A stretch of DNA of 64,000 nucleotides from Rhodalgimonas zhirmunskyi (GTDB lineage: Bacteria; Pseudomonadota; Alphaproteobacteria; Rhodobacterales; Rhodobacteraceae). A program made the position numbers and the translations under genes. Location of the stretch: the NCBI GenBank assembly GCA_030848925.1, contig JANFFA010000001.1:62001-126000 (forward strand), in the 5' to 3' direction. Shown here in pieces: positions 49,453 to 51,470 of this stretch. Position 1 is the first letter of the stretch. Each line of letters starts with the position of its first letter. Below the pieces are notes generated by a model. The model had not been told where the DNA came from, did no database searches, and worked only from the letters and a program-made list of their open reading frames with translations.

Positions 49453-49803
49453 TCAGCCCTCACGCAGCGGCAAAAGCGCCTGTGCCTTCTTGGTCAGCGA
49501 GGCGCGGATCACGTCGTAGGAGATGGCGAGGCGGTGGCGCAGCTCGTCCTCGGTCAGCTTCTCCATCGGCAGCATGATCCACGAGCGGTGGAAATAGGGC
49601 GCCTTCACGCCGACGCCCGCGTCGATCAGCATCTGGGCAGTGTCCGTGTCGGGGCATTTCACCGTGACGCCCGCGCCCTTGGCACCGATGGCGGCGAAGA
49701 TCTTGCCGCCCACTTTCCAGACATCATGGCCCGGGCCGAAGGGTTCGGACCATTCGGCACCGGGAAACGCACCGGCGATCTGGTTGATGTGCGCGCGTTG
49801 CAT
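49453..49803 (-). CDS. MmcQ/YjbR-family DNA-binding-fold protein
   Basis: A 116-aa single-domain protein of the MmcQ/YjbR (DUF419) family, with the family blocks FPGAEWSEPFGPGHDVWKVGGKIFA and YFHRSWIMLPM. Members have a DNA-binding-like fold but no settled function. ATG 49803 has a consensus GGAGG site. Divergent from the cysS leader. Confidence 0.85.
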   Translation of the reverse strand: MQRAHINQIAGAFPGAEWSEPFGPGHDVWKVGGKIFAAIGAKGAGVTVKCPDTDTAQMLIDAGVGVKAPYFHRSWIMLPMEKLTEDELRHRLAISYDVIRASLTKKAQALLPLREG

Positions 49804-49836: not shown

Positions 49837-49865
49837 TTGGCAGGGCGGCGGGAAAGGCGTATCGT
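49837..49865 (+). promoter_or_regulatory. Promoter of the cysS leader
   Basis: TTGGCA (49837-49842), 17-nt spacer, TATCGT (49860-49865). The -10 ends 7 nt before ATG 49873, so the transcript would start at or next to that ATG, making the leader frame leaderless. Confidence 0.5.
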
Positions 49866-49872
49866 TTCCGCC

Positions 49873-49914
49873 ATGAAGACGACCTGCATCATTATCTGCT
49901 GCATTAGCTGCTGA
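49873..49914 (+). CDS. Cys-rich leader peptide upstream of cysS
   Basis: A 13-codon frame, MKTTCIIICCISC, with four TGC cysteine codons including one immediately before the TGA stop. It lies directly behind a plausible promoter and 83 nt upstream of cysteinyl-tRNA synthetase. Such Cys-codon clustering immediately upstream of cysS is what a ribosome-stalling sensor of charged tRNA-Cys would need. After the stop, CGGCGGGC (49921-49928) can pair with GCCCGCCG (49965-49972). No T-run follows, so control would be translational or Rho-dependent rather than through an intrinsic terminator. Function is inferred. Confidence 0.65.
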   Translation: MKTTCIIICCISC

Positions 49915-49997
49915 CATCGTCGGCGGGCCGTTCTTCTGTTTCCAACAAGATGTGAAGTTGCTAAGCCCGCCGCGTAACCCGCGCGCGCGAGGACTCT

Positions 49998-51470
49998 ATG
50001 ACCGATATCACGCTTTATAACACCAAGACCCGTCGCAAAGAGGCGTTCAAGCCGATCGATGCCCAGAACGTGCGGATGTATGTCTGTGGCCCGACGGTCT
50101 ATGACCGCGCCCATTTGGGCAATGCGCGCCCGGTGGTGGTGTTCGACACGCTGTTTCGCCTGTTGCGCCATGTCTATGGGCCGGATCACGTCACCTATGT
50201 GCGCAATTTCACCGACGTGGATGACAAGATCAACGCGCGCGCCGCCGAAAGCGGGCGCAGCATTGGCGAGATCACGGCCGAGACGACGCAGTGGTTCCTT
50301 GACGACATGGCCGCATTGGGCGCGTTGGAGCCGACCAAGATGCCGCGCGCGACGCAGTATATCCCGCAGATGATCGAGATGATCGAAGAGTTGATCGCGC
50401 GGGGGCATGCCTATGCGGCCGAGGGGCATGTGCTGTTTGCCGTGGATTCGTGGAAGGAAAGCTACGGCAAGCTGTCGGGGCGCACGGTGGACGACATGAT
50501 CGCAGGCGCGCGGGTGGAGGTGGCGCCCTACAAGCGCAACCCGATGGATTTCGTTCTGTGGAAGCCGTCCGGCCCTGACCTGCCGGGATGGGAGTCACCT
50601 TGGGGCCGGGGGCGGCCCGGTTGGCATATCGAATGCTCGGCCATGGCCTATGACCTGCTGGGCGAGAGTTTCGACATCCATGGCGGCGGCAACGACCTGA
50701 TGTTCCCGCACCACGAGAACGAGATCGCGCAAAGCTGCTGCGCCCATCCCGAGGGCGAGTTCGCGCGGTTCTGGATGCATAACGAGATGCTGCAGGTCGA
50801 GGGCAAGAAGATGTCCAAGAGTTTGGGCAATTTCTTTACGGTGCATGATTTGCTGGAAGGCCATGATGGCCAGCCGCCTGTTCCGGGCGAGGTGATAAGG
50901 TTTGTGTTTCTAAGTACGCATTATCGCAAGCCGATGGACTGGACGGAGAAGAAGGCGGAAGAGGCAAAAAAAACATTAAGGAAGTGGGCTATACTAGCAC
51001 GTGGAACCCCACCGTCCGAGCCGTCCAAAGAACTTCTAAGGTGCTTAGCAGACGATCTGAACACTCCCGGCGCGATAGCCGAGTTACATCGCTTGTATTC
51101 AACCAATGACGGTGGATCTTTGAGGGCTTCGGCCCAGTTGCTGGGGTTGATGACGGATGTAAACGAAGAGTGGCTGGGCGAGCCAAAATTCGACAATATT
51201 CGTTTGGAAATTGAAGAGCTGGTTCAACCAATTTTGCGTAGGATAGACGCTGCTCGCGCTCAAAAAGACTATCAAACTGCAGATGAGTTGCGAAATGGAC
51301 TTCGGGACGCTGGCGTTTTTATCAACATAACACCAAGCGGTGCGACGTGGAACTATACGTTGCAAGATGCTGCGAAAATGCGTGATCCGGATGTTCCAGA
51401 ACACGGTTTAATGGGGGCCGCAGTCAATATCGCTAGTTGGATGAGATCTAAGCTAGAGGCGCTGAAATGA
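49998..51470 (+). CDS. cysS: Cysteinyl-tRNA synthetase
   Basis: Charges tRNA-Cys. The 490-aa class I synthetase has zinc-binding [10 protein letters not shown], the HIGH-type motif as [33 protein letters not shown] and KMSKS (KKMSKSLGN) near residue 270. The protein is complete and normal in length. From about 50890 to the stop, base composition falls to near 48% GC by eye with codons such as ATA, CTA, AGG and TTA that neighbours avoid, while the first half is GC-rich. The gene thus looks like a mosaic. A Cys-rich leader lies upstream and a long inverted repeat downstream. Confidence 0.97.

Follow-up and report, generated by a model that had tools for sequence, protein, structure and literature searches.

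Attenuation of an aminoacyl-tRNA synthetase operon by means of a leader with many cognate codons, the type of control considered here for the cysteinyl-tRNA synthetase gene cysS, is exemplified by the pheM leader of pheST in Escherichia coli. The pheM leader differs from that of cysS in its Phe codons, its Shine-Dalgarno site and its canonical intrinsic terminator.

Among the alphaproteobacteria, the 14-codon trpL leader of Sinorhizobium meliloti has its ATG at the very 5' end of the RNA (PMC7298713). Like the element proposed for cysS, trpL is leaderless and combines two mutually exclusive structures with transcription attenuation (PMC7298713); it carries Trp codons and precedes the biosynthetic operon trpE(G), whereas the cysS leader carries Cys codons and precedes a synthetase gene. 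Leaderless polycysteine uORF attenuators have been described in mycobacteria (Shell et al. 2015, PMC4633059; Canestrari et al. 2020, cited via PMC13236596). There, a leaderless short ORF rich in Cys codons controls downstream genes in response to cysteine, as would be the case here, but the lineage is unrelated and the genes, for example cysA2, are those of cysteine metabolism and not cysS.

The uORFC-8-2 motif (Brewer et al. 2021, RNA Biol, PMC8632094) is reported with 145 examples, upstream of cysS and in Rhodobacterales only, and was proposed to be a ribosome-mediated attenuator of cysS. It is described as having two stems, the first of which contains the Cys codons, and then a U-rich 3' end, where a U run compatible with an intrinsic terminator is reported for every example. 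Judged by its sequence, the leader element described below is the same motif and, having been predicted computationally in 2021, is not new. The AUG-initiated short ORF before cysS, the tandem Cys codons, the predominance of UGC with some UGU and the U-rich 3' end all agree with that description. The tandem Cys codons are placed there "usually" at 14-15; they are codons 9-10 in the present sequence, mostly 8-11 in its relatives and 14-15 in one of them. In the present element the Cys codons lie inside the first pairing (P1) and a conserved T-rich tract is found, a comparison in which the uORFC-8-2 stems are represented by their verbal description. A probable leaderless start, a pairing that begins with the first codons and the partner strand of the second pairing (P2) are described here and do not figure in the text on uORFC-8-2 (PMC8632094). 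The present analysis thus adds the probable leaderless start, covariation evidence for P1 and P2 and an independent confirmation of uORFC-8-2, an uncurated computational motif: a scan of the region against Rfam 15 with E values up to 5 gave no match. The earlier note on this DNA, made from the sequence alone, had stated that no experimental description of such a leader was known in Rhodobacterales. This agrees with the literature searched, where no experiment on the element was found and PMC8632094 alone names it; a computational description does exist.

The leader and its conservation

The window, a stretch of 64,000 nucleotides from Rhodalgimonas zhirmunskyi, contains the following features upstream of and including cysS.

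49837..49865, + strand: promoter-like TTGGCA-17-TATCGT, -35 at 49837-49842 and -10 at 49860-49865, with the start predicted at or next to A49873
49873..49914, + strand: leader ORF MKTTCIIICCISC with its stop, 13 codons, conserved in relatives, no Shine-Dalgarno site upstream
49989..49993, + strand: Shine-Dalgarno sequence GAGGA of cysS; a similar motif precedes cysS in 85 of 91 relatives
49998..51470, + strand: cysS, cysteinyl-tRNA synthetase, TIGR00435 equivalog

The product of cysS matches TIGR00435 with 443 bits (cut-off 340). The leader runs from the ATG at 49873 to the TGA at 49912-49914, which is 83 nt from the cysS ATG at 49998, and has TGC at codons 5, 9, 10 and 13, codons 9-10 being the tandem pair; the earlier note had described these features correctly. 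When the 250 nt upstream of cysS were shuffled with dinucleotides preserved, an ATG ORF of 8-20 codons with at least four Cys appeared in 22 of 20,000 shuffles, or about 1 in 900. Much stronger evidence that a Cys leader before cysS is not due to chance comes from its conservation in related sequences.

A divergent gene of the MmcQ/YjbR family (49453-49803, minus strand), which shares its intergenic region with the cysS promoter, is assigned by a weak NCBIfam match only (36 bits, under the curated cut-off). About 200 nt downstream of cysS, and in the same orientation, lies a citramalate synthase gene (TIGR00977, 51676-53295).

Upstream regions of cysS were collected from 121 genomes of the host family, one per genus, and from 16 genomes of other families of the class. 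A leader with at least two Cys, an ATG ORF of roughly 9-18 codons just upstream of cysS, is present in 100 of the 121, and eight more have a single-Cys version identified by eye (MTAIARIIAICITR, MNRNGLIIRCIAR and others). Hence about 90% of the sampled host-family relatives, at one genome per genus, possess a leader with at least one Cys. Most leaders have 13 or 14 codons. One further genome has kept the leader ORF (MNAPNRIIGIIIGG) without any Cys codon, possibly through decay or a change of specificity. No leader was found in about a dozen of the 121, some of which are cut by contig ends.

The core of the leader in relatives is I-C-C-I, with tandem Cys in 71 of the 100 leaders. Both Cys codons occur (TGC 253 times, TGT 15 times). 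The core Cys occupies codon 9-11 in 78 of the 88 leaders that have a Cys-Ile core, mostly 22-28 nt upstream of the arm that P1 and P2 share. An Ile is found three codons before the stop in 92% of the leaders, and a Cys directly before the stop in only half.

A covariance model of the element has matches in 242 of 298 host-family genera, and the matches listed are located just upstream of cysS by their coordinates. In a search of 240 genomes across the class, strong matches were confined to the host family; seven weak matches fell outside it, none of them near cysS. This distribution suggests that the element is old within the host family and, as far as sampled, restricted to it. Second matches of the model in four genomes were weak (24-27 bits) and were taken as chance.

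The start of transcription

The promoter-like site agrees with consensus at 9 of 12 positions and is the sole such site in the 1.2 kb scanned, where 0.4 would be expected; 7 nt separate TATCGT from the leader ATG. When relatives are aligned on the leader ATG, TTG(G/A)C appears about 35 nt upstream and TA 12-13 nt upstream, and 87% have a C at position -1. In 89 of 100 relatives the two boxes are both found at this spacing, compared to 1.1% at other positions of the same sequences, a count in which the choice among nested ATGs gives a slight advantage to the leader. Of 91 relatives, 7 have a Shine-Dalgarno-like 4-mer ahead of the leader and 85 have one ahead of cysS. The conserved promoter position and the lack of Shine-Dalgarno sites suggest that the leader is very probably leaderless across the host family, with transcription beginning at its A.

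The earlier note had proposed a Cys-codon leader for cysS, possibly leaderless, and had named two observations that would speak against it: a lack of conservation of the TGC codons or the frame, and a transcription start downstream of 49915. The alignment of cysS upstream regions shows the short Cys-rich frame and its Cys codons to be conserved across the host family, which supports the first part of the proposal. The conserved promoter places the predicted start at the ATG, and what the note offered as possible has become very probable.

Two alternative pairings

The RNA that begins at the leader contains two predicted pairings.

49875..49886, + strand: 5' arm of P1, the G of the start codon and leader codons 2-5, supported by swap tests and independent pairs
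49924..49936, + strand: 3' arm of P1 (CGGGCCGTTCTTC region), supported by swap tests and covariation
49931..49942, + strand: T-rich tract TTCTTCTGTTTC at the base of P1, with conserved T columns
49922..49928, + strand: 5' arm of P2, GGCGGGC, overlapping the 3' arm of P1
49965..49971, + strand: 3' arm of P2, GCCCGCC, about 36 nt beyond its 5' arm

In P1, nucleotides 3-14 of the mRNA pair with the GCGGGCC that follows the stop codon and with the adjoining CGTTCTTC, giving a duplex energy of -12.4 kcal/mol in the window. In the swap test, the 5' segment of each species was paired with its own 3' segment and with the 3' segments of other species, which gave z -13.9 for broad and z -11.7 for narrow segments. 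The influence of shared ancestry is reduced in 21 disjoint pairs of near relatives, chosen by cysS protein distance and differing in both arms: the own pairing is better than the swapped one in 20 of them, by 5.5 kcal/mol on average (sign test, p 2e-5). Examples of the covarying arms are ATGAAGAGC/GCTCTTTC, ATGAAACGG/CCGTTTCAT and ATGACC/GGTCAT. In 81 of 91 relatives the P1 duplex takes in one or more bases of the AUG. A column-wise count on a MAFFT alignment gave little signal and is uninformative, because the register of P1 shifts; counts per position show two neighbouring registers (nucleotide 6 against position 8 of the arm, z 4.5; 5 against 9, z 3.0; 6 against 10, z 2.8).

P2 lies within the 8-bp stem after the leader stop that had been noticed earlier, in which CGGCGGGC (49921-49928) pairs with GCCCGCCG (49965-49972). 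Across relatives 91.7% of its cells are paired, the outer pair undergoes a compensatory G-C/C-G switch in 19 sequences, and the refined swap test gives z -8.8. As both pairings covary and share the GCGGGCC just after the leader stop, P1 and P2 are, on this comparative evidence, mutually exclusive. They are also balanced, since nucleotides 1-66 of the window RNA fold as P1 with -20.4 kcal/mol and the P2 hairpin has -18.6 kcal/mol.

Other candidates were rejected. Single folds made a hairpin at the stop codon look promising (in the window, CTGCTGAC-ATC-GTCGGCGG), but the swap test gave no covariation for it (z +1.1), and it is thus left out of the model. An initial swap test of downstream pairing (z -9) was dropped due to overlapping segments; the clean version gave z -3.9.

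The loop of P2 contains an element, AAGUUGCUAAG, that is conserved in relatives. For the conserved GAAGTTGCTAAG at 49954-49965, in this loop, the assigned pairing is limited to a few bases of upper P2. In one relative the sequence of the P2 3' arm, GAAGTTGCTAAGCCCGCCGCG, is retained upstream of cysS and a recognisable leader ORF is lost.

Ile codons of the leader (49888-49905 and the corresponding codons of relatives) are ATT in 56% of cases compared to 21% in cysS, and the ATT that follows the core Cys is nearly fixed. These observations suggest selection at the RNA level, which perhaps keeps the loop open.

The T-tail score after P1 has a mean of 1.66 across relatives against a background of 0.50, and 6% of background positions reach its median. 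With its 37-nt loop, its bulges and a T tract that is interrupted by C and G, P1 is atypical and, compared with the terminators of E. coli, a poor intrinsic terminator. A simple scan for intrinsic terminators with loops of 3-8 nt reported none, in agreement with the earlier note; the loop limit of such a scan makes it blind to P1, and a covarying stem with a conserved T-rich tract does exist outside its range. The conclusion drawn in that note, that the mechanism would have to be translational or Rho-based, is thus not upheld, atypical as the structure is. Our best guess from these sequence features is that P1 acts by termination.

A model of the switch and its alternatives

By combining these observations, it is possible to describe how the element may work. 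We consider it to be a ribosome-mediated attenuator of cysS with a leaderless leader ORF and a P1/P2 switch, with a probability of about 0.8. When Cys-tRNA is plentiful, the ribosome would complete the 13 codons and depart. The first leader codons would then pair with the segment behind the stop codon, forming P1, which runs into the T-rich tract, and transcription of cysS would mostly end there. With Cys-tRNA in short supply, the ribosome would stall at codons 9-10, the tandem Cys pair, and mask much of the 5' arm of P1. The freed segment would pair with the downstream GCCCGCC to form P2, and cysS would be transcribed and translated.

The main argument for this direction of regulation, in which scarce Cys-tRNA leads to more CysS, is that the position of the Cys codons agrees with the geometry of P1. 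A ribosome with the usual footprint, stalled at the core Cys, would hide part of the P1 5' arm, while the shared arm would stay available for P2. Stalled at the Cys next to the stop codon, it would leave the P1 5' arm uncovered; the retention of this Cys in only half of the leaders is what one would expect if stalls matter only where they cover the arm. In theory the masking is incomplete, because a stall at codons 9-10 leaves about the first 10 nt exposed.

In a more specific form of this model, to which we give slightly less than even odds, the switching arm is the start region of the leader ORF, P1 ends cysS transcription and at the same time prevents re-initiation on the leader, and residues 2-5 serve pairing only. 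A leaderless start, together with a switching stem made from the first codons, would mean that an attenuator can work without a 5' UTR. If the attenuator model is true, an essential synthetase is controlled by its own charged tRNA throughout the family, providing a clean, testable system in a large alphaproteobacterial group.

The attenuation might instead be translational, the P1/P2 switch mainly governing a third pairing (P3) of the P2 3' arm with the Shine-Dalgarno region of cysS, so that stalling opens translation. Such a pairing is in line with swap tests in which the P2 3' arm was set against the stretch ahead of cysS (z -3.9) and against the Shine-Dalgarno region (z -3.1), and in the window the predicted accessibility of the Shine-Dalgarno site rises from 0.25 with the arm free to 0.49 with the arm occupied. 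Over 91 relatives, however, the mean effect is small (0.40 to 0.45, p 0.03) and clearly opposite in 13%, and the conserved T-rich tract is left unexplained. We regard translational control as fairly unlikely.

The attenuation might also depend on Rho, which would load onto a free pyrimidine-rich stretch once the leader has been fully translated, whereas a stalled ribosome and P2 would hide this stretch. The conserved tract beyond the P1 arm, which is C/T-rich and G-poor, and the atypical character of P1 as an intrinsic terminator favour this reading. The strong covariation of P1 would then need another reason, and the tract is short for a Rho site. We regard Rho dependence as rather improbable.

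It is also conceivable that the peptide itself is active, by nascent-chain arrest, as a small Cys-rich redox or metal sensor, or in trans like peTrpL, a leader peptide for which such action has a precedent (PMC7298713). The conserved Ile/Cys-rich core extends beyond the Cys residues, including the Ile found at 92% three codons before the stop. Residues 2-5, however, vary freely and track the RNA pairing, many relatives have T, R, G or A in place of core residues, and the preference for ATT over ATC mentioned above points to selection on the RNA. An active peptide has little chance of being the explanation. Finally, that so short an ORF, known here from sequence, is an untranslated chance occurrence over a conserved promoter and a structured 5' UTR is highly improbable, as its ATG, frame, synonymous TGC/TGT Cys codons, stop and position are conserved in more than 100 genera.
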